NCBI RefSeq assembly: GCF_964355755.1 | Contig: NC_092670.1 | Coordinates: 37,311,795 to 37,375,794 of the forward strand | DNA: 64,000 nucleotides | Source: Antedon mediterranea | Taxonomy: Eukaryota; Echinodermata; Crinoidea; Comatulida; Antedonidae | Direction of reading: 5' to 3' | Part shown: piece by piece, positions 31,736-56,393 of the stretch | How positions within the stretch are numbered: the first letter of the stretch is position 1 | Layout: the number at the start of each line of letters is the position of its first letter | Made by a program: the position numbers and the translations under genes | Notes under the pieces: model-generated | The model's input: the letters and a program-made list of their open reading frames with translations, nothing else | Database searches by the model: none | Told to the model about the DNA's origin: nothing

Positions 31736-33079
31736 ACAATTTCATTTTGCGCAATTCCGATTCTGTCATTTTTAATCAAAGAGCCAATGATGGGATTCAT
31801 TCACAACTCTCGGTTTTCAAGTTCCGTTATTCTGATTGGCTAATCGCTAGTGAACGAGTGCACGTCCAACCAATCACGTTCGATATTAAGTAAGTTGAGT
31901 GTTTTAACGTGACTGCATGGGTCTCACTTGATCCGAACAAAAATGTAATGTCATCACTTTTACTCTTAAAGCTAATCTGTTGGATTTGCACTAAGAATGT
32001 TGTGTTAGGACGAATGCTGATTTCATCCTGAAATATAATTCCTCGATCTTTAAAATCATAGCTTTTCATCAAAGAAATCGGTTTTTTTTCTTCTAAAAAT
32101 ACCGTTTTGTTTACCGAGGAGGTACGAACTGGTACGCATTGCTTAAAGGTAAGCTATTTATGTAATAATATAACAATAATAATAATATAAATGTATTGGT
32201 ATATTCTTTGTTGTTATGACTATAGTATCGTCATTATCATAACCATCATAATAATATTATCATCATTGTTCGTCAATTATATCTTTTTACCATTCATCCC
32301 CATCATAATCAATTGATAACATAACAAACATCGAACAAACATAATCTGTCATCAATATTATATCATTTACTAATATCAACCCTATCATAATCAATTGATA
32401 AAATCTAAAACATGTCATATATATCATTTTATCGTGGTCATCCTTACAATGATAACATCACAAACATCAACATTGTTATGTTGCCATCATTCTACATAAA
32501 TATTATATAATGTTACCATTATCCCCATCAGTAATCACAATGTTATAATCATTACCTTATCAATAATATATCATTTTAACATTATCATCTTCATCATAAT
32601 CAGTTGATAACATCGACTTTATGATTTTACCATTATAATTTCCTTATTATCACCATCGCCCTTCCATTTTCCCTGTACCACATTGGTTGTCAGTATTTTA
32701 ACCATCATCGCCACCACAGCCACCATCAAATCAGCATTTGTCACCACAATTCACCACAAACATCATACATTGTCACCATAACCACCATATATTGTTACCA
32801 CAACTATGATCAACAACAATTGTCACCATAACCCTAATCAACATTGTCACCACAACCATCATCAATTGTCACCAAAACCATCATCAATTGTCACCAAAAC
32901 CATCATTAATTGTCACCAGAACCATCATCAATTGTCACTAAAACCATTAAATCATCATTTGTCGCCATAACCCCAATCATCAATTGTCACCACAACCATT
33001 CTGAGTATCATCAATTGTCACCACAACCATCACCAATTGTCATTACAACTATGATTATCAACCACAATTAACACTATAA

Positions 33080-33470
33080 CCCTGTCAATTGTCACCACAA
33101 CCATTATCATCACTTGTTACCACAACCGTTATATCAACAATTGTCACCACAACCATTATATCAACAATTGTCACCGAAACCATTATATCATCAATTGTCA
33201 CCACAACCATTATATCATCAATTGTCACCACAACCATTATATCATCAATTGTCACCGAAACCATTATATCATCAATTGTCACCGAAACCATTATATCAAC
33301 AATTGTCACCACAACCATTATATCATCAATTGTCACCTCAACCATTATATCATCAAATGTCACCAAAATCATTATATCAACAATTGTCACCACAATCATT
33401 ACGGTATATCATCAATAATTGTCACCACAACCGTTACGGTATATCATCAAGTGACATTATCACAAATGTC
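33080..33470. repeat. 27-bp minisatellite
   Basis: Units of CAATTGTCACCACAACCATTATATCAT in tandem with point variants (CCGAAACC, CCTCAACC), grading upstream into looser ATTGTCACCA repeats from about 32720. Because 27 is a multiple of three, several frames on both strands stay open; the resulting repetitive frames are artefacts. Confidence 0.85.
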
Positions 33471-34000
33471 ATAATTTGATTAAGGATTATTTAGACAGTT
33501 CAATCCAACTATTTTGTTATAAGGAATCGGTCGTAACGCTCACAAAAGCAGTATTTTTATCTTTCTAATCTCAGTAACATACGGTAAATTATAAAAATGC
33601 ATTTAAATTGTTGAATGAATGTTATGATAATGAATATGTATCTTTATTCAGCAGACGATTGACTCAGTTTCTCATTAATTTTTTTTTAATTTCCAAGTAT
33701 CGGAACATTTTACGAAAAGTACCACCAATTTGCACACTGTTGAAGCCGCCGACGAAGCACTCAACCTATACTTACATAATACCTTTACACTATGCGAAAA
33801 CATTACTGTTTATAATCACCGAGCGTTAATAGTCTCTAATGATATAATATTGGAAAACATTCTGTTTCTCTTCATCGGCAAGTGTTTAATAGTCTCTCAT
33901 ATTATTATTAGAACTTATTTTTACTACTCTTACTTCATGAACATCCATTGATTTACGTGAAAGGTTTAATTGACTCGGTTCGTCGTTGGACACCTTTAAC

Positions 34001-34037
34001 ATGGAACATCGCTGGCTCCTTTTCCGCTTGCAACTCG
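34001..34037 (+). other. Proposed first coding exon of the LDLa-LRR-GPCR (start of signal peptide)
   Basis: ATG at 34001 in a good context (AACATGG), then [12 protein letters not shown] and a consensus GTAAGT donor at 34038 in phase 1. Joined to the phase-1 acceptor exon at 43407, it continues [19 protein letters not shown], giving a textbook signal peptide. The alternative, an in-frame ATG at 43313, lies in what looks like a SINE tail and would place a 30-residue polar stretch first. The implied intron is 9.4 kb. Confidence 0.6.
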
Positions 34038-37000
34038 GTAAGTTATAACCACTCGCTAAGTTAATTTAATGCGTTGCTATTTTGATCATGTTGATTACGA
34101 ACTTTCTAATGTTATATGTATATTATTATGTTTCTCACTGCAGGGAACAGGTTGGCATGATCAATGTTCAACCCAATAGCTGCTATAATGTATTCTAGAT
34201 TCTGTTTTCCATACTTTGTAGTTTTTGGAAATTCATTTATAGTTGATTATTTATAGCATTTTCTTTCCATTTTCCATACCAAGATTCTTTTTATTACAGC
34301 TTTATTGTCCCCCTGATTTATTTTTTTGGGAATATGTCATTTTAATGTCACAAAATTTAGGTTATTTATTTTGATCAAAAATTGGATCGGGGAAAACAAA
34401 TTTACCTAACTAATTTAAAGCAAACAATAGTCAAATTGGCTGCCGGCCAGCAGTGAAAACATTATTTTTTCGAAGTATTTTTTTCTACGGAAGTGATTAG
34501 GCCTAACTTTGTTAAAACTACAAAATGGCATTTGATTTTATTAATTTTCATTTTTCATGTGTTTGGGGAACAATACATCTATAACATTAATGTGTATTAT
34601 TCATTTTATTTGTTATTTTGGCAGAAAATTTAATCCGTATCATCCAATCACTACTTGGAATAGTGAAAATAAGCCTATACTGTATAGGCTATATTGCATA
34701 ATAGTTATATAAAATAGGTATATTTAACTCTTATGCGGAATGTCGAAAATATACTGTAGCCATGGAATAGTATAAATACTGTATGGTATATATAATATAC
34801 TGATTAGGCCTACAAAATGGGGATAATTATTCGTTAAATGTATCCATCCATTCGATGTTATAAATGTTATACAACCTCATGCTATTTATCGATGTAGAGA
34901 GATATGGATTCAATGCTGCAGGCCCCTTTCCATAATCTGCCGCTGAGAAAGCTTCGTTGGATTACAATCGGCTAATATACCTATAAACCAATTCGAAGCA
35001 ATAGATGATTTATGTCCAGACGATTTAGAATCATTGAAATATATTATAATGTAACTTTAGCTAAAATCTATTGAATAAATCGACATTCTCAATTTAAGGC
35101 TGACAATAAAAATATTAAAACAGGCACTACTTTCATATTTTAGGCCTAAGTGAAATTAATGGTTAAGTACTATATGAACTTTCTCGGAATGAATCGGCAA
35201 ACAAACAAAGTCAGAAGATCAACAATCAGTTTGTTTATTCTTCACAAAACCATCAAGACAACTTTTAATTATTAATATAGATAATCACAGTGTGTATGTA
35301 GAGGTTTGTTGGCCATTTATCGTCGGTTTGACCACAAAGAAATTCGGAGAAATCAATTTACGCGGGTTTTTGTTTTTGTTCAATTTGTGTTATAAAGATA
35401 ACAGTCACCTGTGTGAGAGCATTGCATTACTTTTATATACATCACTTAAATGAAGATTGATAATTTGGTTTAAAGATCTGTCTACACTATCACTATCACT
35501 TTATGTGACAATAATGTGATGTGCCCATATATGGCCATGATGATGTCATATCAATACCATATTTAAGCATATCACTACCATATTTGGGCACATCAACATT
35601 TTTTTTTCTAGTTTGATTGATTTGATTTTATTGATAACGTTCTTACAACTTTTTTATTCCTACCCCTCCACTTTTTGAACGCTTGCCTTTTTTGACTTTT
35701 GACTTTTTTGCCTTTTTTGACTTGCCATAATATATTGGTATATAGGTTTGTGTAGAGTGGCGGATATAGAAGCGGAACCCACTTGCACGTTTAATCATCA
35801 TGTTTTACATTCGCGCTCCCGTCTAGCTGATGATTAATGTCTGTGATGGTCTTTGGTCCTAGACACTACTGAAGTTTGTAATGAAATTTAAGTATAGATG
35901 AACAACATTAATTAATTAGAGCCACTTATAACACAGTCTACACTTCCTTATTGCGGGGTAACAGCAATAGCTATATATTCATATTCAAGTGTTCCGGAGT
36001 GTTCCGTGTATTTAGTTATGCAGAATTACATTAAGACTATTTGCACGGCGACGGATACGTTAGAAACGAAGATATGATGTCACTTAAGTCGCTGTCGATC
36101 ATCGTATGGTAATATGTAATGCGTCGCGGTGTGTTTAAAGAGATATGGGAATATGAAATAACATTATAACCTAACCATTTCTCTATTTGGTGATACATAC
36201 CTAGTACGTGATGTTAATTCAATTTGCGCATGCGCGAACATTGGTACGTATCCTTTTTCGGTCGATTCCTCGACACAATTTTGGTGGATTAGGTCCAATC
36301 ATAACACAATATGCGTAAGGTCCTTTTAAGTAGTCGAAAATCAAAAGCTACGCCACACGCTTTATCAAAAATAAATAAACTTTTTTTTTCTTCAAAATAG
36401 TGATACAATTTTTTCCCGCGTTTCCAGCTAATCTTCCAATATTTCATTGCGTTAAAAACAGATAAAAACAATTCTCGATCAAGTCAATTAAAATTGAGTA
36501 ATTATTTAAATATTGATCGATGGAGAAATATGTCCGTTTTAATCACGTGAACATACTGTTGGATTAATGAAGCAGTTATAACGATGATGACAAGCATATT
36601 GTGCGTCCGGTTATCAAGTGTTGCGATATCTACAGCTGATAAAACTGCGTGTTTTTTAATTGGATATTTAAACGATTAAAGATGTATTGTACTAAAAATA
36701 TAATTTTTTTGTTGAATATGCCATTTTAATGTCACATAATAGTTTACCTAAAAAAATGTAATTTTAAGCAAACAACGGCCAAGTTGGTTTTTGGTTGAAT
36801 TTAAACATTTATTTTGTCATTTTATAAGCGAAAACATTACTTTTTTCCGTTTTTCTTTCTACGAAAGTTATTAACTTTATTAAAACTACAAAATAATCTA
36901 TTCTATTCTATTTTTTATGTTTTGGGGGACAATACATCTTTAACGCAACTCATGAAAGAGAAACATTTTAATTCCCACTATGATATGTTTATATTTGATT

Positions 37001-40000
37001 ATTATATACTCTGCCATACAATTCGTACTCACAGTGCAGATTATATACTCTGCCATACAATTCGTACTCACAGTGCAGATTATATACTCTGCCATACAAT
37101 TCGTACTCACAGTGCAGATTATATACTCTGCCATACAATTCGTACGCACAGTGCAGATTATATACTCTGCCATACAATTCGTACTCACAGTGCAGTTGAC
37201 TGAAACACATCTCAGATTGGAATCTCAAAACCCACTCAAAACCTTACTTAGGACACAACACAATTGCGCGCACGCAGTGCAAGTGACGTCATAAAAAAAT
37301 ATCACGAAGATTTGTACATTATAAAATAAACATGTTGACATTACAAAACAAAATGACGTCTATAATCAGTAAAGCTCTGTCTACACTAATCAAACTAGTT
37401 TGACAAAAAAAACGTGATGACGTGCCCATGATGGTAGTAATATGCCCAAATATTGCATATTGTTGTCACATAAAGTTTTAGTTTTGTAGTGTATACTCAT
37501 CCGTGACACTGAAAATATGTACAAAAAGTCATCAGATTTTAAACGCGCGCGTAAAATTGTTTTCCTCTGAGGTGTCAGTGACTTTTGTTTATCATTTTTT
37601 TCAAATGATTTTTTTTTTAACTTTATGACTAGTTTTTACCCGGATTAAAGGATTTAATAGAAACGTAATTGACCTAAATTAATGCAATATTATCAGTTGG
37701 TAAAATAAACTGATTTCCCCTTTATGAGTTTAGGATTTAAAATGTCGGAAATAAATACACTGTAATTTATATGATAGTTTAAGGGTGGGAATCAATCTAA
37801 AGTTAAAAGTACACAGTGTAAATCGGCAATGATCACAAAATAATTAATATCACAAAATACTTAATAAAACAATAACTGGTCTAGGCATATAGCTACCGGA
37901 GCTTTGATTTAAAGATGTATTGTCCCACTGAAAAAAAAATTAATTTTTTTTTACATTTTTTGTTGAATATGCAATTTTAATGTTACATAGGCCTAATAGT
38001 TATTCCATATTACTAAAAATTTAAAGCAAAAAAATAGTCAAATTGGCTGCCAACAATAATTCAAGACACAATTTGTTTGATAGCCATTGGTTAAAACATG
38101 TTCCTGTCACTGATTGTAAAATGTGTGTCTCGTTGTGAACATTGGACGTTGTTGTTAGAAAAATTGTTGTTTGTCCCTTTAGTGCAAAAATTATTCATTC
38201 ATTCATTTCATTTATATATTCGACATCAAAAATTTCCTTGTACCCCAAAAGCAACAGAGTCACCATAACATGATATATCTTGGAGCCCCAGACGAATTTA
38301 ACTACATGGAATTATTTATCAATATACATTTAAAAATTTAAAAACATAAAAAACCGGTAAAATAAAATAATAGCACACATGATTCGTATGAACGACGAGA
38401 GAGATATATAAAATGACGTTTGGGTATTTCGCAGCAATGTATATAATTACGATCGCGTTTGTACAGGTCTATTGATTATTCTGCCTTTTTGTAAAAGAGG
38501 TAATTACATTGTAAACGAAAGCAGTATAGTATCATGTTTAATTGTCCGTAACCGTCTATATAGTTTATCATTAAACTATAAACTATTAGGAAATAAGGCA
38601 GAGACCCGTATTACTCGTCATAAACTGGTTTATGAACACACTCGTTATTTTTATTAGCATTATTGCGCCAGCTACTGATTTAAAACGTTAAATTGATAAT
38701 TTAATGTTTATAAGAGGAAAGCGGATTTGATTCAGTTGTAACTCATGTTTCGTAGAAAATCATGATTGTTGCCGTTTATCCAATAACACTCGCATTGTTT
38801 TATATAAGCAACATAATAATTTTAATTAGTTTGAAGTATCATTAATGTCAATTCACATCCCACTATAGAAGAAGAAAAGAAAGTCATAATTGTAGCCGTT
38901 TATCCAATAAAACTCGCATTGTTTTATATAAGCAACATAATGATTTTAATTAGTTGGAAGATATAGGTATCATTGTCTCATCCTCCGCTTGATAATGTAC
39001 TTTTTAGTAGATGTATTGCATTTAATCAAAGTACTGGAATGCGACATAATGTACCCACTGTATAAGAAGTTTAAACACCAAAGAGATAAAGTACACAATT
39101 TCACTCCTCCGTGGTTGTAATAAATACGACATTTGTTACAGGCCGTCGCAAGATTAAAGTAATTTTTTATTCAATCGAAACCAACAGCGACAATTACCGC
39201 TACTAACAGGTTTGATACAAACAAAGCCAGGACTGTTTAAAGCACCTTGATTGATCCTAATATTGATCAAGGGCTTCTCTCGTCCAGTGCCCACCTGATT
39301 TCGGACCACTTGCCTTTGTCAGGCCGCCTGTAAATTACGATAGTCACTGCCTTAAGCCCTGTTTACAGTGTCAAACTTTGACAAAAATAGCGTGATGTAT
39401 CAAAACATGGTAGTGATATGCCCAAATATGGTAGTGATATGACATCATCATGTCCATATATGGTTTGATAAAGTTTGATAGTGCTAGCTTTATATAGTTG
39501 GTTTAGAGCGAGTTGCATTATGGGAGATTTATTCACGCGTACAACACGATAATTTGTCGGACGCACGCACGACGAGAGTAGTCAGAAGTTTTAGCCTTTT
39601 CCCGCTTTTTTCATACCATCTGTTATTTGGATCGAACCAGAAAGGTTAATGGAACGTCCTATAAAATGAGCAAATGCGTTAAAGGTGTGATTTTTCCATT
39701 CGTTTAATTTGTAGATATAACCTTGATATTTAAAAATATTAATTTGTAGAAACCAAGCCAGCAATTGCCAAACTAAGCGCCGATATTCCTAGGCGGTGTA
39801 ATGCATAATTTAATTAGTTCCAACGTCGTTGGTCAGAGCTAATAGGCCCAACATCACATTACGGCACCATTGGAAAGTATGTCATGGGCGATTTATGGTT
39901 ATGCAATCTTTATGTTTTGTTTTCCTATAGTTCAAGTGGTGTGCCATGCAATGTGTATACAACATACAACTCTGTACACTTGTGAATAATTTAGGAAAGT

Positions 40001-43000
40001 TTGTCATCGTATTGTACAATTGAGTTCAGCTTATTGGATCTAAGCGCCACCCGGTTTAACTTAATCTGAGTGACTGGAAAATGCAAATCATGGCGTTTCC
40101 GATATTAGAAACGAGAATTGGCTCGCGCACTGACATCAACCGGTGTCATACCTCAAGATTTAGTATGTGTACAGTAGGCTATACATACTTTAATATTTTT
40201 AGTCGCACGCTCGCGACTCTACAGCTCACTATGTCGGTCGGTTGGTTGGTCGGTCGGTTGGTCGGTAAACACTAACTCAAATTTGAGCACGCGACTGCAG
40301 CTATGTATATGGTCTTGTTAATTAGCCTCCCTCTATATTCTCTTGAAAATTGGTTTCTAAAGCCTTGTCTACACTATAAAACTTTATTATATGCCCATAT
40401 ATGGACATGATGATTTCTTTGGGCATACCACTACCATACATGAGCACATCACACTATTTTGTCACATAAAGTTTGATAGTGTAGACACGGCGTAATTGCT
40501 TTATTTTCGACATCATACTATTGACAAATTTCTATTTACGGTAGCTTTAAAATCTCCCCCACCCCCCACCCCCCCCCCCCCTCCCCACCGCAAAAAGTTA
40601 TCTTAATAATAATAATAAATGCATATAATGTAAAGGCTTTTCTTTTAGATATTATAAAATGTTCGTGTTCAATAGATAATAATTTCTCTCACGTTACTTT
40701 AAAATGTCAAATTTAATTTTAAAGATTTATTTGTTTTTCATCGACAAAATATGTAGATGTTAAGTTACAAATCGTAATCATTAGTAAGTTAGGTACGTAT
40801 GCATTGATAATTAAGTATTCTGAGCCGTTAGCTAGTGTGGAGATGCATTAACTCCAGTGGAAACCAATCGTAACGATTAGGCCTAGAGCACATTATAGAA
40901 TATTGATTGTCGGAACGACTGTTTGGTTCTAACATAATTCAGAGATATAGGTGTAATTTGATTGTACTATATGGTAACTCTCTGTGGTGTGTAAACACAC
41001 CTTAGCTAACGATAACTATCGTTTAATTCAATGTGAACACACACAGAAAGTATTTAATTCTAATAGGTATAACTATCTGTGGTGTGCATAATAGCTAAAT
41101 AATCGCTGGTTTGTTCCTTCATTTAAATTGGTAAGATTGACTGTTATGGCGAGCCATTACAAATTGAAATATCGAAGTAAATTACTTCATGAAATTGATA
41201 ACAGTCATCTATATTCTTCAACCATCTGTAATTAAGTTGTTGATGTATTGCAATTATAATTAAACGTATTTTATTATTAGGTGTTGATAAGTTGAAATGT
41301 CAATGGAAATTGACGAAACGGGTTCTGATATCTCGTTGATGTTTAATTCCGTATCGTGTTTTTCTTGTTATGAAAAGTTAAGTCTATAAGTCACATTTAG
41401 TGCCAAGTATCTTAAATAATGTAGTTTATCAATGACATTAATGCTTGGTTACCACTAGAGACACAGCACAAGGACGTAACGCAACGTAAAGCTTGGTCTC
41501 CACTAGGACACAACGCTAGGACTAAGACGCAACGCAGGCGAATTGACCAATCAAAAGCAATGGATTATTCGAACTGTCGCGTGTGATTGGTCAATTCCCT
41601 TGCGTTACGTCCTAGTGTGAACCAAGCTTAAGTGAGTTGACCAATCACAAACGATGGATTATTAACTGTGGCTTGTCATTGGTCAACACGCTTGCGGTGC
41701 GTTTACGTCCTTGCGTTGCGTCCTAGTGGGAACCAAGCTTTAGAAAGAAGTTGACGTGTGTGTTAGGCCTTGCCAGAGCATCAATTATAGGTCCATGATC
41801 AATGTATGAACGCCCGGGTTGTGCATCTCTTTCGCTGTGACTTAATCGAAATAATCTACTCATATACCTTTTACATACTTTTACTCTACTCTCTAGCCCT
41901 TTCTATTGGCATTTTTAACCATGAGATTTTCCTGACAAGTTGTTTGAATTTCCTAGGATTCGCTGTAACAAGCTCGTTGCTATGTGTTCACGCCTATCTG
42001 ACATTTGTAAGCTCCGTCTACACTATAAAACTTTATGTGACAAAAACATGTGATGTGCCTATATATGGACATAATGACATCATATCACTACCATATTTGG
42101 GCACATCACACTTTTTTTGTGAAACTAGTTTGATAGTTATAGACAGAGCTTAAGAAACTTTGCCTTTATGGACAGTTTTGACGAGACAGAACGTTATTCC
42201 TGCGGCCGTTATTTTGCTGATCGGTTTAGTGGGTTTAACTCTCACATCGATATTTTGATGTTAGTCTCTCCTCCTCAGACTAAAAAGAATACACTGTATT
42301 TGTAATTTTATAGTAAGCTATTACGAACTATTTTCAACAAATGTACGTGGAAATCCGTGTCATCATGAGCTAGTATTCGAATTTCTTGTTTTAATTTTCC
42401 AGAATATTAGCGTTGTTCTGTTGTAAAATGATTGGCTTGAGTTTATTCCCATAATGGGACTGCGTGTCATACCCAATTACCCTACCTACAAAACATGACC
42501 AAATGTCATATATCGTTGACTACTGTGTTAAGCGATCAAAGAATTAATTCATTCACGTAATGCCTAAATGATGAAATCATTTGTGTGAAAAAAGAATATA
42601 GTCTCTCCGTTTTATTATACCTCTACTCGGGGACCGGTTCGACAGTTTGGAAAGTAGCGGTGTGTTGGACGTTGGTTCGAATCTAACTCTCGTCAAATTG
42701 CCCCGACACAGGTTCAGGATTGAACCCGGGCACAGGTTAGGATTGAACCCCGGCACAGGTTAGGATTGAACCCCGGCACAGGTTAGGATTGAACCCCGGC
42801 ACAGGTCAGGATTGAACCATTGAAAAGGTCAGAATTGAACCCGGCACAGGTCAGGATTGAACCCTGGAACAGGTCAGAATTGAACCCTGGAACAGGTCAG
42901 GATTGAACCCTGGAACAGGTCAAGATTGAACCCTGGAACAGGTCAAGATTGAACCCTGGAATAGGTCAGGATTGAATCCTGAAACAGGTCACGATTGAAC

Positions 43001-46000
43001 CCTGGACAGCTCTACTTCCTATGACATTGCATTATCATTTCAATATGTCACAATCAGCAGTGTGCTCGTCTCCACTGTATTGTATTGATAGCTTTTAAAC
43101 AAAAGTTATGATTTATGTATTTTGTGAATTCCATTAAAAATTGACTTTTTACAACTTGACGTTAATTACTTCATGGTATCTAAATCATCTGTCTATTTAT
43201 GTGCATTTAGCTTTTTAATGTTTATATTGGACGCTTTGTAAGAAAGAAAGCCCACAGTTGTATTGTATTAGGCCATTGCACTTGGATTGCAAGAATTATT
43301 TTTATCATCTTTTTGGAATTGGTACTATATAAATGTAAGATTGATTTGATTCATTTTGAAAATCTCTTTTCCTTGTTTGTTAAATGTCTTTTGTTTTACA
43401 TTTCAGCTACATCAATAGTGTGGCTAGCGTTTTTAGTGGCAAGCAGTTGTGAGTCTCATGGTTCAGTGGTCGACTGCAACCCCACAACAGAAGTAAAGTG
43501 TGACGCGGGCGGATGCGTTGCCCTGAACTCGACCTGCAACTCAATCAGTGACTGCCCCGACGGATCCGACGAAAGCCCTCGCGTTTGTGGTGCGTATACC
43601 AATCATGAAAGAGCTAAAAATCAAACCGTTGAATCACATAACAACGCACTTTACTCTTTATTATCTATCCGTGGTTAATGTTTAACGGATTACAAAATTT
43701 GAACCTTGGGGATCGGTTAGTAGAAATGGAATCACGTATAAAAATTAACATTTAATAGATCATTACACGATCTAAAGCTCAGAATAGTTATATTATAGGT
43801 GTGTAACATTTGCCGGTAGTTAGAGGTCAGGGGTGTAACGAACATTCCTTGAAACAAATGTTACAATGAATGTCAAAAATCACATAGCTAGATATAGTTA
43901 ACATATGATGTTCAATTCATTTCAAGGTAACATTTATTCAGAAAAAATAACATTATTACAATGATCTTTACCGTGAAATTACTTTTCTAGAATCATATTT
44001 TTTTTTTTTAATATAGATCATGACATAAAAAATTATCTTGACAAAACTATTGAAACAAATTATTATTTTTTAAATGGCTGTATAAATATATAGTTATAGT
44101 TTGATGATAGAGGTTATTTTATACCAACATGGGTTTATGAAAGACATTTTTGTACAGGATTATCACTAATTTCATCTTGCTTACATTATTATATTATTTA
44201 GGCTGTCTACCTGCTGAGTTTATGTGCTCTAATTCTTGTATTAGTATATACCGACGATGTGATGGAATTTGTGATTGTGGGGTTTCATGTGAAGATGAAG
44301 ATGACTGTGGTAGGTTCTACAAACAATATCTGTGGTATTATTTCCTGTAGAAATCATAATAATAGCGTGAAATTGTTTAGTTGTATTACTATTACTGATA
44401 TTTTTACTGATTGATTTCTCTTTTTCTAGACCAGTACCCGTGCCCAAGTACTCACATGAAGTGCGCCACTACACATGTATGCATTCACCTAGCTCTGCAG
44501 TGTGATTTTAATGACGACTGTGGCGATGGCTCGGACGAGAATTGCGGTAAGAGGGGTCTCATCAATCATTATATGATGATTATATGATGATCAGTCCTAT
44601 CGTCTCTACTACCACCAATAGATTGTCCTTTTCCACTTTGTTCTGTTTTACTTCCTCCAGTAGTGCTTTTTCTAATTTCTGTGTCCACATTCTTGCTTAC
44701 ATCTTCTCATGCTTCCCCCATTAAATATCCATCTTTTGCATTCACCAGTAGATTACCTCTTTCCACTTTCTTCCATCTTTTGCGGTTACCAGTAGATTGC
44801 CTTTTTTCCACTTTTTCCATGTTATGCGTTCACCAATAGATTGCCTCTTTCCACTTTTTCTATCTTCTTCCTTCACCAGTAGATTGCCTTTTTCCACATT
44901 TTCCATCTTCTGCGTTCGTCAAAAGATTGCCTCTTTCCACTTGTTCCATCTGCGTTCACCAGTAGATTGCCTCTTTCCACTTTTTCTCTCTTTTTCGTTC
45001 ACCAGTGGATTGCCTCTTTCCACTTTTTCCATCTTCTTCGTTCACCAGTAGGTTGCCTCTTTTCACACTTTCTATCTTCTTTGTTTACTAGTAGATTGCC
45101 TTTTTCCACTTTTTTTCATCCTCTGCATTCACGAGTAGATTGCCTCTTTCCACATTTTCCATCTTCTGCATTCACCAGTAGGTTGCCTCTTTCCACTTTG
45201 TCCATCTTCTTTGTTCATCAGTAGATTGGCGCCTCTTTCCACCTTTTCCATCTTCTGCTTTCCGATTTTTTTTTTCAACACATTTTTGTTGAAATTTCTC
45301 CATCCTACAGTAATAAAACAAAAGGCTAAAATAAAAAGTATTGTAAATCAGCAAAAAGGATAGAGAGATTCCACGCTTTGTTTCATTAGTCTAAAATATT
45401 CTGAAATAATGACTAACCTTCAACCTTTAATAAAGTGGACAGTGCACTTAATTTGTATATCACAGATCGATTCCTTTACCTATCAAAGATCATTGAACAT
45501 TTATTATTGCAGAGCATCGATCGTGTTACAACCTAGAATTCCGATGTGCCAACGGCGAATGTTTGAAACCAGGATATAGATGTAATGGTGAAGTTAACTG
45601 CCGTGGAGATGACAAGAGTGACGAAGAGAATTGCTCTGAAGGTAAGTTATATTGTTTCCTCTAACAATGTTGACGCTATTTCAAAAACTTACTATTGGCT
45701 TCTTTTAATCTGGACGATCCAAATCGTGAACGTTTTTTTTAATTGAAATTACTCCACTGAAAATAATCTTGAATTGTATTTTCTTTAAATTTGTACTGTT
45801 CTCCACTTCATTTATTAATAACAAAATGAAATTCTTCAAATAACATTAGTAGAGAAAATTGTCTTTATTACTTTATAGTATAATCAAATTAATGTACAAT
45901 GTATAGGCCTACATTCGTCCTTTTCAAGGTTGTTTTCAATTATTCGCAATGTGTCTTCCCAACACATCACATGACATTGATAAATTACAGGGTGAAATCA

Positions 46001-49000
46001 TCTTGGGGATAGCAGGTAGTCTAATCTCATTTGAGATACAAAAGGAGGGATCAAACGGCTGAATCCAACCGAACAGCAATGTTGGCAGAGAGGCCAAATT
46101 TTTTTTAAGAGCTGTTTAAGCAATATTCCATTTAAAAAGTTGAATTATCCATCAAAACATTGTTTTTCATACAGTCGTAGTGTGTGATGGTCGTCGGATA
46201 TTCCGTGAGCATTTTTGTGATTTCTACGCCGAATGCTCCCTTTCTGAAAAAGATGAAAAACAAGATTGTCCATGTGATCCAACTGAGGCGTTTATGTGCA
46301 GCACTGGCAGATGTTTTAAAAGATCTCGGTTATGCGACGGAAAATGTGACTGCCTAGGGTCTTGTGAAGATGAAGATAATTGCGGTAATTATGTAATAAT
46401 TGTATATTTATTAATAATAATTCATGCAACATATGTTGAATAGTTGTAATATTCTTGTTGCTTGTGTTTGCAAAGATATGCTCCATAACTCAAAAATGTA
46501 TTGTAGATGGAGGAGTATCCTATATATTTAAGCTTAGAGTTTGCGAATTTTCTTTTTTTCATTTTCTGTTTGTACGTTTGTTGATGTGGACGAAATTTCC
46601 GAAATAAAAGAAATTGAATTGAATTGAATAGTATATTTACATTCCTTTGTTGTTGTCTTATCATAGTAAACATTTGAGTTTTCAAATTGGGTGGACAAGT
46701 TGCTTTCCAATTTTTTCAATAACTCATTTTACTGAATTCATGCCCATATAAGATATAAACAATTTGTGAAAACCGTAATTTCTTCAGTAAAATCAAAATT
46801 GTAATTTAGTAATGTCACCTACATTAGAAGGGAAGTCAAATTTTCTAAATATGTGCATGTTTTGAAAACAATATCCTAAATTGACGTGATTTTAATTATA
46901 CGTAAAACTTCACCTGCAGGTTCCTCTGTCTGTGTACCGGGAGAAGACTATTTCTGTTCACAATCGTTTCGTTGTTTGGACGCGGAGTTTTTATGTGATA
47001 GCACTAATGACTGTGAAAATAAAGACGATGAATTATGCAGTACGGTTTATGGAAATGTTTTTTAATACATTATATACAGAACTTTAGAGAGACTTTTAAG
47101 TTATTGGATGATAAGGCCAAGTATTTGAATAAGCTTACTTTATACACAAGTATAAAAACAATCAATTTTTATTCAGGACGACATTGTTGTTATTATCACG
47201 CTTATTTGTAAATACAATGAAGTACTGCGTATGATCCGATGAAGTTTCTTTTAAAATAAATATTTAGTGTTTTACTTTAACTTTTCTTTTCCATACTCAT
47301 TTAGTATTTTACACCTATGATTGGTTTCAAAGAATTTGTATTAAAGGTACCATTAATTTATTACTTGTTTTTAGGCAGTCTCTATCAAAGTAAAGATGGC
47401 TATGAATGCAAGTCCGAGAATGAGAGAGAGAATATGTGCCATATAGGCAACAAGCCGTATTGTTACCCAACGAACTATTATTGTGATCATCATCCCCAGT
47501 GCCAAGGAGATTCTGATCGAAGCTATTGTAAAGAAAATGGTATGGTATGGCATATTTACTGTAATCAACTGTAAAATTGACTGTATGCATATATGAAATG
47601 GGCCTACAATAATTTAAGATTTGTATGCCGTTTTGTAGTAGGCTAGCATTTTACTTTCATTTTTAGCAAGCAATATTTTCGTAGGCCAAATATACTGACA
47701 TGATTCGTGCAGCCCACATTCTGTGCACTGTAGGCCTAGTAAATCGAGTCAGCGAATAATTTGATATTTGATGAAATTTCTGCTATATTTTGAAGTTTTA
47801 AGGATCTGCTAAAAAGGAGGAGTCGAATATGTTTAGGTTGACAAATGGCGAGTTTAAAAAACATTTTTTTTTCTCTTTGAAGCTGTATGTTCTTCCAATG
47901 AATACACATGCGCAAACGGTATGTGTATAAAAGGTTCCTTCAGGTGCGATATATATTCTGACTGTCTGGATCACAGTGATGAACTTAATTGCGGTAAGTA
48001 ATCAGTCTGATTATTTTTATCACAATTCTTTATCATCATCATCGTTATTATTAATACTATTCTTGTCTTGTCACGACGCTTGCCACCACTGCTATATTTT
48101 TTTTTTTTTTTTTTTTCATACTCATCCAACAGCGATTAACCCGCCAATTACAGGATGGATAAACTATTTAATAATTTCACAAGACAAACATATACACGAT
48201 GCTCTACATAAACAAAGACTTATTATTAAGTCTTTGGGAGTAGAGTTGTAAATTGTCATGAGAAAAAAACCCTGACATATGACAGGACTTGAACCCAGGA
48301 CCCTTAGATTGGTAGCCAAGCATCATAACCACCAAGCCACAGCTCCACTTCGTTGATTATAATATAATTTACGTGACTTCATTAATTGAAATTGTAATAA
48401 TCAAAATGAAATTCACAGAATCGCATCAATGTGAGGAGGGTATGTGGCAATGTACATCCGGGCACTGTATTGACGTCAGAAAGCGATGTGACACCTTTGT
48501 AGACTGCGCCAACTTCGGGCCATACCGTGATGGTTCAGACGAAGAAAATTGTAGTAAGATCATTGTTTTTGTTACAGGCCTACTTCGCTCACGATCGGCA
48601 TAGTGCTTCCGGGGGACAAACAGGATTATTTTATACCTCACCTGTGGTGGTCACTTTGAATGGTGGTAACTACTATTAAAGCAGAGGGAAATTTTCCCCG
48701 AACCCCCACAGGGGAGTGCAGCAGAGGTGATGAGCGGTCGTGAGCGACCAATGTTTTTTACTTTTGTTGTTGTACATAATTGTTGTTGTATGTATGTACA
48801 TGTAGATGCATTTAAATAATAGTCACCAAACTGACAACCACTCACTTTTTGGTGTACTGATGGGTGTTGTTGTTGTAAAATGTTAAATTGTGAATTGGAA
48901 TAAATCATGTTATTTTATTTTATAAAATTAATTTAAAAAACTTATAATAGGACAATAGTCAGTATACGAAACAGGAGACAGTGATGACGACAATTGTGTG

Positions 49001-52000
49001 ATGATGCTTAGGCCTAGTCTAAAAACAACAATTATTAACATAACCTTTTCAGTCGCTCTGGTTCAGTCGTCCTGAATCGTATTATCTCGATCTCAGTAAG
49101 AATGTATCCAGTGTGGACACAACCTTAACTTAACTAATGTCTTTGTCATTAATACTTAGTGGACTTCTTGATAACTATTTTATAGATTTTGAAGATTGTG
49201 TGGAAACTGAATTTCAATGTGACAGCGGCGTTTGCATTGACAGTGGTAGCGTTTGTATTAACGATTCGTACTTGCCGCAGTGTCGAGACAAATCTCATTT
49301 ACTTGAATGTGGTATGTTCTTTATGAGTGGTTAAATTGTAAATAAATACTTTAAAACACGTACTCTTCCTACATACAACGGGTTTTTACAACCTCTTTGC
49401 AACGGCGTTAAATGCATTCACAGAGCTTCTTCCAAAATGGTTCGGACCGTTCTATTTGCCATGCCATTTGTTCTGAATTATCGTCATATACATTGTATGT
49501 GTAAAGCCTTGTCTACACTATCAAACTTCATGTGACAACAAATAGTGTAGACAGAGCTTAAAAGAATATCAATTTAGGCCTGCTCTCTTTCAAGTATAGA
49601 TACTATTAAATTATTTTCAGATGTCTTTTAAAATGATTTACTTTCAGATGATTTCGAATGTCCAGTAGGCTATTACAAATGTCAGAACTCTTATTGTATA
49701 CCAGACAAAGGACGTTGTAATGGATATGTGGAATGTAATCTCTTTTGGGATGATGAAGTTAATTGCCGTAAGTTCAGTGGCGTAATACTGGCTTGGGAAC
49801 CCTAAGTGACCCTCCAACGCTGGAGGCCTCGGGTGTTTTTAGCCTTTTTCGACATATTTTAATGCTTGCTCTTTCCTTTGGACAGGTGCCCACGTAAGAT
49901 CCGAGGCCCCTGGGTTTAGCCAGTTAGCGCCCAATGCGTAAGTTATACGTTGCGGCAAACAAGCACTTTAATAAGAAGAATAGGAACTGTATTTTAATCA
50001 GTGATTTGTAAGAAAATTGCTTTTCCATGGTCGGACATAGTAGTCTGTGATTGGACAAATATTCTGGCTATTAGTAGTAGTAGTAGTAGTGTGGATATTA
50101 ATGTGTCCGATCAGAGGCGACTAAGTCCGTTCATTGAGATGAGTGTTGCTCCATGGTCCGACAATGGTGTGCAGCAAATTAAGTTTAGAATGAATAGTAA
50201 AAATCGAGTTGTCAATGTTGCAGTTTTCATTTAAATACATTCAAGGAACACATTATTTATATTGAAGTTATGGTCTAATAAAGCTACATTACATGAAATA
50301 CTGTACTCGTAAATTAATGGAAAATTAAAAGTAGTGAGAACAGCGCTGTCTTCAAAGTGCGAATGCAGTTTAAAGCTCTGTCTACACTATAAAGCTTTAT
50401 GTGACAAAAAAAAGTGATATGTCCATATATGGATATGATGATATCATATGTCATATTTGGGCACATCACACTTTTTTGTCAAACTAGTTTGATAGTGTAG
50501 ACAGAGCTTAAGCATACAGTTTGACATTTCATTTCTGAGATTATTTCAATGCTTATCTTCATATTATTAAAATTCAAATAATTCTATATTTTTTTAGCTG
50601 GACGATGCAAAGAAGATTTTACGTATTATTCAGTTCCTGATTGCATTTGCAATGATAAAACCATCGATTGTAATGGTAGGCCTAATGTTTCAAAGACAGT
50701 CAACTTTTCTGAATTAAAACATATGAATATACTGTACGTATTTGCTTTAAATTGTTTTTGCTTACGCTTTTGTTATATAAAACAAATAATGAATGTTTTT
50801 ATATTCGTTCGATGGTACAAATAATTATTTGTAACATCGTACTCATAAAAAATCATTATTTGTATATCGAAGTAGGCCTATACCATTTCTAATAGCTTGT
50901 ATTAACTGACGTACACAACTGCAGTAGAATAGTTGTTGTTTAACATCCATTGTTTTTTTTTTCTACATCCATTGTTATTAAAAGTGTTTATAATTGTTAA
51001 TTTATTTAGGAAATTTTCTGGAACAGAAATCGAATTAACGGAAGAAACATTTATTAACGTGACGTGGGCAACAGTGCTGTAAGTATTCTAACTAATTTAT
51101 TTGTATCCCTTACTATAATGAATTTACGATAGCAATTAGCTTTCTTATAACATAGATAATTTGTTTTTTCTTTTAAACAGAGACCTAAGTCGAAACAACA
51201 TAGTAAGCGTCGGAGAGGGATATTTTAAAGACATGTTTCTTCTGCAAAACCTGTAGGTGTTTTCTTTGTGTTGGCCGAAAATTAGATCATCGTTAGTTTG
51301 CAAGTATTATTACCCGGCGGAAAGGGTCTAATCGATAGATACTCATCAACCACCATTTTGCTTTTAACTGCGAGGTGGTAATACTTGGTAGCTACGCCTA
51401 CTAATAGCTGTGTATTATTGTAGTTACCATGGAGAAATACGTTAGGATTCTCCATGGTAGAACATCAAGAGTGATATAGACACGCGTCCCTTATAAATCT
51501 ATAGGGCCTAACTAAGTGACTAACCAATGTTTATAACTATAACATTATTAGTGTCGTAGAACAGTAAGTAGCCTATTAAGCCTTAATTTAATATAACATT
51601 ATTCTTTGTAGAATATTGTCAGACAATAAAATCAAGAGGTTAAAAGCGGGAGGATTTAGAGGTTTATCTAACCTTCGACATTTGTAAGTAAAAAAGTTCA
51701 TTAAACTGTTTGTCAAATCAAAGTTCATAGTTTGTCTACAAAGCATTGGCCTAAGACGACCTAGGCTAAGTTTACGGCTTCCTCGCTGTGGTTGAAATAC
51801 ATTATAGCAGGCGGCAATGATTGTACACTGCATAGTCTGCGCGGGAGGTATTTTGTTATCCAATGAGAAGCGATCTAATATAGACATTCGGTGTGTGTCT
51901 TTAGGAGGAACCTGCTCATCAAAACTACATTATGCTAGACATAATACGTCATAGATATGTTCGCAGTACTCGCTTGCACTTTGCAATTTCTAGTGTCTTG

Positions 52001-55000
52001 AATGTTTTACTCAAATTATTTACAATTTTTAATTTATATATATATTTAGAAATCTGACGGGAAATATCATTGAGGAAATTGAAGCCGATGCTTTTTTTGG
52101 ACTGGATTCACTAACAACATTGTGAGTAAAAACGTACCTTAAAAATGTTGGTTAATGAACTGGTCTTCAAAAGATTGTCTTGTCTAATAATTTTTTTAAT
52201 GTAAAATACCATATAAAGCTTATTTGTACCATTATATTATGTATTAAATTACGGTATATAGTCTATCTATTATTATGATGTAATTTATTATATATCGTTT
52301 TCTTCAGAGACTTAAGTTACCAAAATATAAAGAAACTGCCAATAAACGCTTTTCATGGATTACGCCGACTAAGAAGTTTGTAAGTGCAAATTAAAAGCTT
52401 AACTTAATTTCAAAACATACATACACGGCTTTTAGTGCTTAAAATAACGTAGCTCTACTAAATAAAAATAATTTATTAAAGATGTATTGTCCCATGAAAA
52501 ATAATTGTTAGTATATTTTTGTTGTTAAATATGCCATTTTAATGTCACATAATAGTTATCCACTTTCACCAAAAATAGATTAAAACAAATGTATTTACCT
52601 GAAAAAATGTAATTTATAGCAAAAATAAAAGTTCAAATTGGCTGCTAGCCAATGGATTTTTTAAAACCATTTATTATGTTATTTTATAAGTGAAAACAGA
52701 CGTTTGGAACGTTAGAAAATTGCAAATGCAGACACCGATATCAATTCCTTAAAAATATAATTCCTAATGTTAAAAGAACAACAATAGTTTTTAATGTATA
52801 TTTTTGTATTCGTAATTGTATTTTATAGAAATCTACGTGGAAACCATCTCCAATTCATAGTTGCTGGAACATTTAGCGGGCTTTCAAATTTACGATCGTT
52901 GTAAGTTTTGATAATTTATATTATTGTAATTGCAATTAGAAGCGGATGTTTGTCACTCTGATGTGGCACAACATGTGTTTATATTAAAATAAAGAAGTGA
53001 AAGAGTATTAAAAAAAAGTGAAAAAATTAATATCAAATATCTCTTTGAGGGGATAAAAATGGAGGAAGCGAAACATTTCATAAGCCGTTAAAAAAAAAAT
53101 TATGATTCTGTAATCGCAATACTGTAACTCAATTGCGACTGTGTTTTATTCATTCATCAGTGGAAAATTACTTCCATTTATTGTCATTTGCATATAAAAT
53201 ATACATATATATTATGTTTGCTCTGAGATATATAAAAATGAAAAACCAGAACAATTACAAAGTGTCACATCACTCTCGTACGGTATACTGACTGATTTTT
53301 ATTTTAGGGATATTACTGAAAACAAAATTAACACAGTGGACAAAAGAGCGTTCAATGGTTTACCATCCTTACAAACCTTGTAAGTATACTTGTTCTTTCT
53401 TAAACATTGATTAAAACATACACAAGTATTTGAGTACACCGCAAGTTCAAAAGCCTATACTTTGCATAGGCGGATTAAGAACGAACTTATTATTCGGCTG
53501 TGACTCCTTAAGCAAGTTGAAGAGTGGGAAGTTAACCCTCTTTTCATATTATCATGAATCTGCACCTACAACTTTTGAAATCTTTCTAGGTACACAGATG
53601 AATATCGTTTTTGTTGCGTTTCAAACGGCGTTCCAAACTGTTTTCCTGAGCCTGACGCGTTCTCATCGTGTGACGATCTGATGTCAAATTATGTTCTTCG
53701 GATAAGCATATGGGTTTTAGGCGCAACAGCATTTCTTGGGAACCTAGTTGTCATAATATGGCGGGTGACACACAGTCGAGATAATAAGGTAATTTTGATT
53801 TGTTGTCGTTGTTTTGAAGGTTACATCGGACAGACTGGTCATTATTTAGGCCGGCCTAAGTGAACTGTTAGGTTAGGTATGCTGCAAATCTATCTTGTTA
53901 AAATAATTTGATGTATTAATTAAGATTTGGGATTTGAAGATCTTTATGATTTTGAAATTCGAAACCTTAAAGCCTAGTCACTACACTAGAAATCCTTGAG
54001 TTTGCCAGCTCATGAAAATCCCAAGTTTGGCAAGACAAAGTTGGCAAGGCAGACAAAGTTAAGAAACTTTGGCAATCTAAGAAAAGGTTTCAGAAAAAAA
54101 CAATTTTTGATAACATTTTTGCCGAGGTTTATCAATGCAGAAAGAATCAATTGCAGTCTTTGTAAGTAAAAAAGAATGGGAAAATGCCTCAATACCGTAA
54201 CTAGTGTGGACATGCAACGGCACCACAGTTTGACTAGATTTAGACAACTTAACTGAGCAGCAGCTGAGAGAACAATTATATTTGATATTTTTTCTCTAGG
54301 TACACTCGTTCCTGATTACAAATTTAGCGGCTGGGGACTTCTGCATGGGAGTTTATCTTCTAATCATAGCCATCGTGGACCTGATATACCGTGGCGAGTA
54401 CATCATCCACGACAAGCAGTGGCGGAGCAGTTTATGGTGCCATTTTGCAGGTTTCTTATCAACCTTCTCTAGCGAGCTCTCTGTGTTTAGTCTGACGATA
54501 ATAACATTGCAAAGGTTGACATCGATTCTTTTCCCGTTCCGCTCTAAGAACATGGAGCTAGGCTGGGCAATGAAGATGATGGTAGCCACGTGGCTGCTCG
54601 CAATATTCCTTGCCGTTCTACCTCTATGCGGAATTGAATACTTCGGTAATTTCTACGGAAGATCGGGTGTCTGTCTGGCGTTACACATAACGGGTGAAAA
54701 GACATCTGGGTGGGAGTATTCAGTTTTCATATTTCTTGCAATCAACTTTGTTTCGTTTATTATTATAATCGTATCGTATGTGGTGATGTTTGTTGTGGCA
54801 CGTCGCACGCAGAGAGCTGTTCGACCACAGAATCACAACGACAGTATGGCAATGCGCATGACCGTGATTGTCATGACTGACTTCTGTTGTTGGATACCTA
54901 TAATATTTCTTGGAATTTCATCGTTACTCGGTGCACCAATCTCACCAAAGGTATCTATATTTTAGGGTCTTATATCGCTTCTGTCCTTTAAGGGTACGTT

Positions 55001-56393
55001 CACACTGAGTCTGGATTTGGTCCTGTGACCGCGAGAAGAATTCGGGCTTCGTTACATTCTATTACAGAGCGCCTACAAATACTACTAGTATTATTAATTA
55101 AAAGGAAAAGTTTTAAGTTGACGTTTAGATAGAGGTGCCGAATTTGCACCTCTCAAATCGACAGGTAGCGCGTTCCAGGTCCGCGGAGCAGTGAAAGAAA
55201 AACATTGTCACCAGCTTTCCGATCGGAAACGAAAAGTACGTTTTGTACAGAATCCATAAAACATTGATGTGAACGGTTCCTTAAACACTACATCCTATTT
55301 CTAACCGGTCACCGGACCGGATTTCGGTCTCAATGTAAACATATTATGTTTATGTAGGAGATATACTATACAGCAGGCCTACACTTCTCATGGTTGAATT
55401 TCTTATTCTCTTTTCAAATACTAGGTTTACGCATGGATAGCAGTGTTTGTTCTTCCACTCAACGCGTCTGTTAACCCTTTACTTTACACGCTGTGGACCT
55501 CTCCGTACGTTCGTCGATTCCTGAAGAAGGCCAGGCCGTCATTACGCTCGCTGTCTACGTATTACACTGATACGAGGCACACGAGTGTCACAGGTATTTG
55601 ATTGCGTTACCTTGTTAAGGTCAATTTACACACAGACGAGCGGTAACGGTAATTTAAAAAACTATAGAATCTCTGTTATTCCTGTTGACCATTTACACAC
55701 AACGTGGAGCGGACGAGCGGTTTCCGCTCACTAGATATGCCAATTGATGAGATGACAAGCTTATCGTTACCACTGTGTAAATTGGCCTTTAATAACCATT
55801 CTTTTGAAGTCACATAATTGGAAAAAATACAAATGTTTGATGGAAGCGTTGATTATAAAGGTTGATGGCAGAAAGTGGTATTAGAAATTCAGATCCCAGA
55901 ACTAAAGTAAAGCTCTGTCTATCAAGCTTTATGTGACAAAAATGTGCCCATATATGGACATGATGATGTCATATCGCTACCATAATTGGGCACATCACAT
56001 TTTGTCAAACTATTTTGATAGTGTGGACAGAGCTATAGGCACACATAGCGTATACAGTTCAGATTTCTATGCAGAAAAACAATTTTTACATAAGTTATAC
56101 AAATAGCGGGAAATTCAAAAGTATTTCTGACCATGCTGTGATTGTTTCTTCCAAACAAGGAATTTTTCCAGATATAACGTTAATTTGAATTTTAATTTTC
56201 AGAACACCATCGCTCAAGTAATAATTTCAAGTTGAAAACAAGTCAAAGGTCAAAAAAGACTTCAATCAAGTTTTCGCCACCAAAGAATAATAACAGCACC
56301 ACAAAACGGATGACGGATGGAAATATCATGTCAGACGATGAACAGTGTAACAAGTTACTCTCAAGCCAAAGAAAACAAGAATCGTTTCAATAA
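34001..56393 (+). CDS. LDLa-LRR-GPCR, GRL101-type relaxin-receptor relative (LGR type C), about 24 exons
   Basis: Exons: 34001-34037, 43407-43589, 44202-44309, 44430-44546, 45513-45641, 46175-46384, 46920-47039, 47375-47539, 47883-47993, 48419-48553, 49186-49311, 49648-49767, 50598-50675, 51027-51078, 51181-51252, 51612-51683, 52050-52121, 52308-52379, 52829-52900, 53308-53379, 53590-53788, 54300-54950, 55425-55593 and 56203-56393. They join in frame to 1110 residues. Order: signal peptide (1-26); 12 LDLa modules, one partial (36-520); a Cys cap [16 protein letters not shown] (about 523-546); LRRs on 72-nt exons (about 547-708); a hinge [15 protein letters not shown]; seven helices (about 730-1020) with CWIP in helix 6 and NPLLY in helix 7; and a basic, Ser/Thr-rich tail. 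Helix 3 ends [12 protein letters not shown], so the DRY/ERY acid is Gln. Snail GRL101 has the same layout and, as I recall, about 1,115 residues; vertebrate RXFP1/2 have one LDLa. The ligand is unknown; a peptide hormone is inferred. The first exon is the least certain part. Confidence 0.85.
34302..34582. mobile_element. MITE-C copy 1 (receptor intron 1)
   Basis: Left TTATTGTCCCCC and right GGGGAACAATACATCTAT are inverted. The interior has ATGTCATTTTAATGTCACA, AGCAAACAATAGTCAAATTG and TTGTTAAAACTACAAAAT, shared with the copy at 36677. Confidence 0.7.
35471..35618. mobile_element. MITE-A copy 6, right end truncated
   Basis: Left TAAAGATCTGTCTACACTAT and interior GATGTGCCC...GGGCACATCA present; the right arm stops after CTAGTTTGATTGA without the GTGTAGACAGAGC terminus. 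Confidence 0.7.
36677..36943. mobile_element. MITE-C copy 2, most complete
   Basis: Begins TTAAAGATGTATTGTACT and ends GGGGGACAATACATCTTTAA, giving clear terminal inverted repeats of about 16 bp. Interior AATATGCCATTTTAATGTCA and TTTATTTTGTCATTTTATAA. No coding capacity. Confidence 0.8.
37001..37195. repeat. 39-bp tandem repeat, five units
   Basis: Exactly five units of ATTATATACTCTGCCATACA-ATTCGTACTCACAGTGCAG, with one substitution (GTACGC in unit 4). Such near-identity indicates recent expansion. The unit length is a multiple of three, so both strands carry repetitive open frames with no other coding sign. Confidence 0.95.
37370..37492. mobile_element. MITE-A copy 7, internally deleted
   Basis: Left TAAAGCTCTGTCTACACTAA, with an interior shortened around TGATGGTAGTAATATGCCC and a decayed right end TTTTGTAGTGTATACTC. 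Confidence 0.65.
37910..38062. mobile_element. MITE-C copy 3, left half only
   Basis: TTAAAGATGTATTGTCCCAC, AATATGCAATTTTAATGTTA and TAGTCAAATTGGCTGCCAAC are present; no matching right terminus is found. Confidence 0.65.
38758..38962. repeat. Local direct duplication of about 75 bp
   Basis: GCCGTTTATCCAATAA and CTCGCATTGTTTTATATAAG, then CAACATAAT and TTTTAATTAGTT, occur at 38770-38835 and again at 38893-38960, about 120 bp apart, with few differences. Confidence 0.75.
39353..39492. mobile_element. MITE-A copy 8, decayed
   Basis: Left TAAGCCCTGTTTACAGTGTC, interior ATGGTAGTGATATGACATCA, right AAGTTTGATAGTGCTAGCTT. Confidence 0.6.
40193..40320 (+). repeat. Dispersed repeat R3, plus copy
   Basis: CTCGCGACTCTACAGCTCAC, then GTCGGTCGG-type tandem words, AAACACTAACTCAAATTTGA, GCACGCGACTGCAGCTATGT and ATATGG. 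Shares its right half with 12191-12264 and its left half with 27105-27190. Confidence 0.6.
40358..40494. mobile_element. MITE-A copy 9
   Basis: Left TAAAGCCTTGTCTACACTAT, right AGTTTGATAGTGTAGACACG. Confidence 0.75.
41440..41742. mobile_element. MITE-B compound of two nested or tandem copies
   Basis: Left termini at 41441 (ATGCTTGGTTACCACTAG) and 41488 (AAAGCTTGGTCTCCACTAGG), right termini near 41630 (GTGTGAACCAAGCTTAAG) and 41742 (GTGGGAACCAAGCTTTA). The interiors carry ATTGACCAATCA / CATTGGTCAA inverted words. Two insertions or a local duplication explain the double ends. Confidence 0.65.
42008..42153. mobile_element. MITE-A copy 10
   Basis: Left TAAGCTCCGTCTACACTATA, right TTTGATAGTTATAGACAGAG followed by CTTAA; interior TGTGATGTGCC / GGGCACATCACA. 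Confidence 0.75.
42700..43010. repeat. 23-bp minisatellite
   Basis: About 13 units of CCCGGCACAGGTTAGGATTGAA with graded variants (CCTGGAACAGGTCAGG). It directly follows a SINE-like B-box (GGTTCGAATC, 42673) and may have grown out of that element's tail. Confidence 0.9.
44618..45262. repeat. 43-bp minisatellite in a receptor intron (between LDLa exons)
   Basis: About 15 imperfect units of ATTGCCTCTTTCCACTTTTT-CCATCTTCTGCGTTCACCAGTAG, strongly pyrimidine-biased on the plus strand. It lies between the exons ending 44546 and starting 45513, so it is spliced out. Confidence 0.85.
48271..48348 (-). repeat. tRNA-derived SINE-like element, family S1, minus copy in receptor intron
   Basis: The reverse complement reads GTGGAGCTGTGGCTTGGTGG, TTATGATGCTTGGCTACCAA and GGGTTCAAGTCCTGTC. 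Nearly the same as 8633-8725, with A- and B-box-like words. The two copies lie in unrelated genes. Confidence 0.65.
49502..49560. mobile_element. MITE-A copy 11, minimal (termini only)
   Basis: Only 59 bp: TAAAGCCTTGTCTACACTAT joined through TGTGACAACAA to ATAGTGTAGACAGAGCTTA. The middle is lost, a deletion product of the palindrome. Confidence 0.8.
49788..49948 (-). repeat. Dispersed repeat with GGCTAAACCCAGGG core, minus copy in receptor intron
   Basis: It has AGTGGCGTAATACTGG at one end and CCCTGGGTTTAGCCAG with TTAGCGCCCAATGCGTAA at the other, the reverse complement of words at 26530-26668. Confidence 0.5.
50371..50511. mobile_element. MITE-A copy 12, best-preserved termini
   Basis: TAAAGCTCTGTCTACACTAT at the left and ATAGTGTAGACAGAGCTTA at the right are almost perfect inverted repeats. 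The flanks read TTAA on both sides (overlapping the ends), suggesting a TTAA target site. Confidence 0.85.
52476..52697. mobile_element. MITE-C copy 4 in an LRR intron
   Basis: TTAAAGATGTATTGTCCCAT, AAATATGCCATTTTAATGTC, CAAATTGGCTGCTAGCCAAT and TTATTTTATAAGTGAAAAC. The right terminus is not recognisable. Confidence 0.65.
55908..56035. mobile_element. MITE-A copy 13 in the last receptor intron
   Basis: Left TAAAGCTCTGTCTATCAAGC (CACTA deleted), right TTTTGATAGTGTGGACAGAG; interior short. Confidence 0.75.

Follow-up and report, generated by a model that had tools for sequence, protein, structure and literature searches.

A probable GRL101-type (LGR type C2) receptor gene with an array of LDLa modules in the crinoid Antedon mediterranea

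The literature describes GRL101 as absent from vertebrates; it is an orphan receptor that is thought to be the third LGR of the insulin/relaxin type. Type C LGRs are divided into C1, comprising RXFP/LGR3 and LGR4, and C2, comprising GRL101 (PMC11863921). The mark of C2 is the presence of two or more LDLa modules (PMC8660763), and that of C1 a single one, or two in some starfish LGR4. The GRL101 of Lymnaea stagnalis carries 12 LDLa modules, an LRR block and a rhodopsin-type seven-helix domain, and IGF has been proposed as the GRL101 ligand (PMC8286064). In the class Crinoidea, one GRL101 has been reported for the feather star Anneissia japonica, with its LRR block at 576-717 and no additional LGRs (PMC8286064). 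RXFP/LGR3 genes have phase-1 introns within the TM2 and TM5 coding sequence (PMC11863921). The thyrotropin receptor, like type A in general, has no LDLa modules.

The stretch of DNA analysed here (the window) comprises 64,000 nucleotides of Antedon mediterranea (NC_092670.1, positions 37,311,795 to 37,375,794 of the forward strand). A gene of 24 exons was rebuilt from the raw sequence on its plus strand (34001-56393), encoding 1135 aa in frame and ending in TAA. The joined frame contained no internal stop, and all 23 introns were GT-AG. The protein runs from a signal peptide through 12 LDLa modules, a Cys cap, seven LRR exons, a hinge and a seven-helix domain to a tail. Introns between LDLa exons are in phase 1 and those between LRR exons in phase 2; both introns within the seven-helix domain are in phase 0, and the tail intron is in phase 1. 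The original prediction of a 24-exon, in-frame multi-LDLa, LRR and seven-helix gene was thus reproduced independently, with intron phases matching the domains; the in-frame joining held, while the predicted length of 1110 residues fell about 25 short. Its LRR and seven-helix parts are homologous to those of RXFP1, LGR4 and TSHR, and its hinge has motifs in common with other C2-like genes of the genome. On this basis we consider it probable that this is one intact GRL101-type (LGR type C2) rhodopsin-class GPCR gene giving a single protein. It adds a member to a kind of receptor already published in Crinoidea.

All exons from E2 to E24 fall within 43407-56393. E2 (43407..43589) encodes the remainder of the signal peptide and LDLa 1; because it opens inside the signal peptide and has no methionine of its own, an additional upstream exon is required. 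E1 (34001..34037), 9.4 kb upstream of E2, supplies the start codon and the first part of the signal peptide and ends in a phase-1 GTAAGT donor. It was the sole candidate with a full-consensus phase-1 donor following an ATG in the 11.4 kb searched (32.0-43.4 kb). Across the whole window, plus-strand ATG-GTAAGT pairs lay largely in apparently real exons, and the minus strand had three short ones. E1 is likely to be the true first exon, and it is the only uncertain one of the 24. Tandem minisatellite arrays at 33055-33474 and 36990-37200 were a source of spurious open frames.

The LDLa array occupies 11 exons and 12 modules, with a Pfam LDLa total of 142.2 bits over the joined protein. Six modules passed the Pfam cut-off one by one: those of E2 (34.1 bits), E4 (44430..44546) and E5 (45513..45641), which together gave 62.2 bits in two stretches, E9 (47883..47993; 46.8 bits in the genome-wide Pfam search), E10 (48419..48553; 31.6 bits) and E12 (49648..49767; NSYCIP, 26.0 bits). 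Five were weaker, at 14.8-20.4 bits (E 0.0006-0.034): E3 (44202..44309; 16.3 bits), the second module of E6 (46175..46384; 18.3 bits), E7 (46920..47039; 20.4 bits), the degenerate LDLa 8 of E8 (47375..47539; 14.8 bits) and E11 (49186..49311; 20.1 bits), which has a long CRD.SHLL.C loop. The remaining module, in the first half of E6, is partial and gave no Pfam match. The predicted twelve modules, one of them partial, are upheld by this per-module analysis as a fair count, half of the modules being divergent. At four examined paralogous loci (L087, L088, L090, L091), the LDLa third from the LRR side best matched E11 in every case, and the module after it best matched E12 in three of the four. 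Self-trained LDLa and LRR profiles, which would be circular for the window, were applied to the paralogues only. LDLa-like matches under 10 bits were discarded as chance.

E13 (50598..50733) encodes the Cys cap at the N-terminal end of the LRRs, where the RXFP1 LRRNT aligns. LRR exons follow at 51010..51078 (E14, 69 nt), 51181..51252 (E15), 51612..51683 (E16), 52050..52121 (E17), 52308..52379 (E18), 52829..52900 (E19) and 53308..53379 (E20), all seven taken from the rebuilt model and Pfam. E15-E20 are each exactly 72 nt and span residues ~589-733; the predicted Cys cap and 72-nt LRR exons were both recovered. E21 (53590..53788) holds the hinge, with the cysteines CC...C and the segment FSSCDDLM, together with TM1. 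E22 (54300..54950), flanked by the two phase-0 introns, one past TM1 and the other between TM6 and TM7, encodes TM2-TM6. E23 (55425..55593) contributes TM7 with NPLLY and the beginning of the tail, and E24 (56203..56393) the C-terminal tail and the stop codon. The domain search named in advance as a check placed LDLa, LRR and seven-helix domains of the joined protein all above the Pfam cut-offs (LRR_8 134.7 bits, 7tm_1 95.6 bits). Against solved structures, the LRR and seven-helix part matched RXFP1 best (PDB 7tmw; 302.6 bits, E 4.7e-89), with LGR4 and LHCGR next; for the seven-helix part alone the order was RXFP1, TSHR, LHCGR, FSHR and LGR4. By its sequence, the gene is an LGR of type C. The acidic residue of the E/DRY site is replaced by Q (QRL, in E22) in this gene only, with D, E or N in every relative compared; this Q could alter the basal activity of the receptor.

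A genome search with the seven-helix part of the gene gave at least 92 matches. At least 67 near-complete relatives, a few with internal stops, formed a clade (support 100/96) in which the seven-helix domain lies in one unsplit exon. The window gene falls outside this clade, and its split seven-helix domain is unlike that of all 67. Other LGR types were represented by single genes, L078 for type A and L079 for type B. In both of these the seven-helix exon is unsplit as well, so the most parsimonious reading is that the window gene gained its two phase-0 introns. Two C1 genes were found: L082, an RXFP/LGR3 gene that groups with RXFP1 (100/97) and, like published LGR3 genes, has its coding sequence interrupted in TM2 and TM5, and L072.

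The LDLa exons and the LRR and seven-helix exons could in principle belong to two neighbouring genes, which we regard as very improbable. All exons lie on a single strand with compatible phases and no stop, and the arrangement recurs at the four paralogous loci named above, where LDLa exons are followed by LRR exons and then by the seven-helix exon, which argues against two separate transcripts. The assignment to C2 needs more weighing. An array of twelve LDLa modules N-terminal to the LRRs agrees with C2 and GRL101, as do the LRR domain and the rhodopsin-type seven-helix domain of the LGR kind, and the array exceeds the single LDLa of C1. In the seven-helix trees, which were to place the gene among LGR types A, B and C, membership of A or B (no LDLa; with TSHR or LGR4-6) was excluded at 100/100; the choice between C1 and C2 was left undecided by the tree alone. 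The gene adjoins C1 there (92/79; 91/81 in a reduced set), and its best solved match is RXFP1. Both observations would fit a multi-LDLa stem relative of C1 (RXFP/LGR3, LGR4), in which case C1 would descend from an ancestor with several LDLa modules and have lost some of them, since such a tree position implies that loss. However, trees constrained to unite the gene with the 67 C2-like genes were not rejected (AU p 0.196 and 0.115), and identity was 46% to the nearest C2-like genes against 35-42% to C1. Adjacent hinge cysteines occur in the window gene and most of the 67 and are absent from C1, with CG in RXFP1 and TSHR. In the segment before TM1 the window gene reads FSSC, and the 67 read F[SA]SC except for a single member with FATC; TSHR reads FNPC there, and RXFP1, L072 and L082 have no cysteine. 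The ectodomain modules also match those of C2 genes. A stem position on the C1 side is accordingly unlikely, and the multiple LDLa modules, the hinge CC, FSSC and the identities place the gene in C2 with moderate confidence. Its separation from the single-LDLa RXFP1/2 type, as originally predicted, is borne out by the number of LDLa modules, the hinge CC, FSSC and the introns, which are in phase 0, one following TM1 and one separating TM6 from TM7, rather than in phase 1 within TM2 and TM5.

Instead of being the conserved single-copy GRL101, the gene might be one more product of a sensory-type radiation specific to this lineage. The presence of at least 67 relatives in the genome, together with the enrichment of a GRL101-like transcript in starfish sensory tentacles (PMC6267866), lends some weight to the radiation, but the position of the gene outside the clade of 67, its split seven-helix domain and the agreement of its LRR position with the published Anneissia GRL101 make such an origin doubtful. 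The GRL101-like architecture and size foreseen from the sequence agree with both described receptors: 12 LDLa modules as in Lymnaea, though with one partial and several weak modules and compared by published description rather than by sequence, and an LRR block at ~589-733 against 576-717 in Anneissia (PMC8286064). The number of further genes differs, with at least 67 C2-like genes in Antedon against none reported in Anneissia, and this family may contrast with the published picture of a single GRL101 in ambulacrarians.

Within the 67, monophyly of the LDLa-bearing genes (L010-L023) was rejected with nine representatives (AU p 0.0013). The remaining branch of 53 LRR-GPCR genes (L024-L077) nests beside the LDLa-bearing L012, L011 and L013; many of its members lie in tandem clusters that include near-identical copies, on contigs C1, C2, C5, C7, C8, C9 and C10. 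When 7-15 kb upstream of four of the 53 (L024, L033, L061, L075) was examined, LRR exons were present and no credible LDLa exon was seen. None of the 53 had an LDLa match from the genome top-150 within 30 kb upstream, compared with 12 of the 14 LDLa-bearing tree rows. The two rows without such a match were L022 and L023, and for L022 the LDLa exons were shown directly in sequence. Because the branch nests among LDLa-bearing genes and the four members examined directly have no LDLa, it appears to have lost every LDLa. The original prediction expected this gene to inform how relaxin-type receptors lost LDLa modules; evidence of loss came from the 53-gene branch, and for the vertebrate RXFP line the tree placement beside C1 was not decisive.

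Another group of relatives, on contig C3, has gained a different module. Seven kringle exons above the Pfam cut-off lie between LDLa exons of these receptors (C3:3191463, 6975699, 7007230, 7040454, 7092207, 7119716 and 7167406), at loci near 3.18 Mb and 6.97-7.17 Mb (L015-L021, L081, L090), giving the order kringle-LDLa-LRR-GPCR; the exon of L090 (C3:3191463) was read directly in sequence. Kringles in GPCRs are known from amphioxus adhesion receptors (PMC2246102), and no report of a kringle in an LGR was found in the open-access literature. Taken jointly, the data make it reasonably likely that a radiation of the C2 line in this crinoid gave rise to at least 67 genes whose seven-helix exon is unsplit, that 53 of them, forming one branch, have shed every LDLa module, although these modules are the defining feature of type C, and that another branch gained a kringle; the window gene would be the only intron-split relative, standing outside this radiation. 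The family may form a large repertoire for chemosensing or recognition. These relatives suggest that type C receptors can lose LDLa modules and take in other modules, and such natural variants allow testing which modules bind ligand and which activate.

For the window receptor, an insulin/relaxin-related peptide would be the expected ligand. Following the GRL101/IGF proposal (PMC8286064), its folded core could sit on the LRR face and its basic stretches on the acidic LDLa array. Activation might depend on FSSCDDLM in the hinge, a segment aligning with FNPCEDIM of the thyrotropin receptor (PDB 7utz). RXFP1 carries its single LDLa on a linker of 32 residues (PMC4837482), whereas the window protein has 12 modules and only three residues between the last LDLa and the next cysteine; a swinging tether of the RXFP1 kind is therefore unlikely to act from the last LDLa. 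RXFP1 also lacks the hinge CC and the FSSC cysteine, both present here. The hinge segment seems a more likely trigger than a tethered LDLa. A complete crinoid GRL101-type gene would offer an expressible construct for the orphan receptor.

Elsewhere in the window, a transporter-like gene is present in three tandem copies at 1.2-16 kb (weak MFS_1 match, 20.7 bits). The palindrome TAGGCCTA occurs 32 times in the whole window, against about one occurrence expected from length alone. Two related inverted-repeat elements starting AAAGCTCTGTCTA, at 50370-50510 and 55910-56040, are likely small non-autonomous transposons. Elsewhere in the genome, which has eleven large contigs (22-41 Mb) and no mitochondrial one, the start of a crinotocin (vasopressin/oxytocin-type) precursor was located at C4:25447225 (L100). 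Crinotocin, CFWRTCPVG, is a crinoid-specific peptide (PMC9793003), and its exact coding match points to a crinoid as the most likely source of the genome; it is encoded exactly once, preceded by a signal-peptide-like stretch and followed by GKR.
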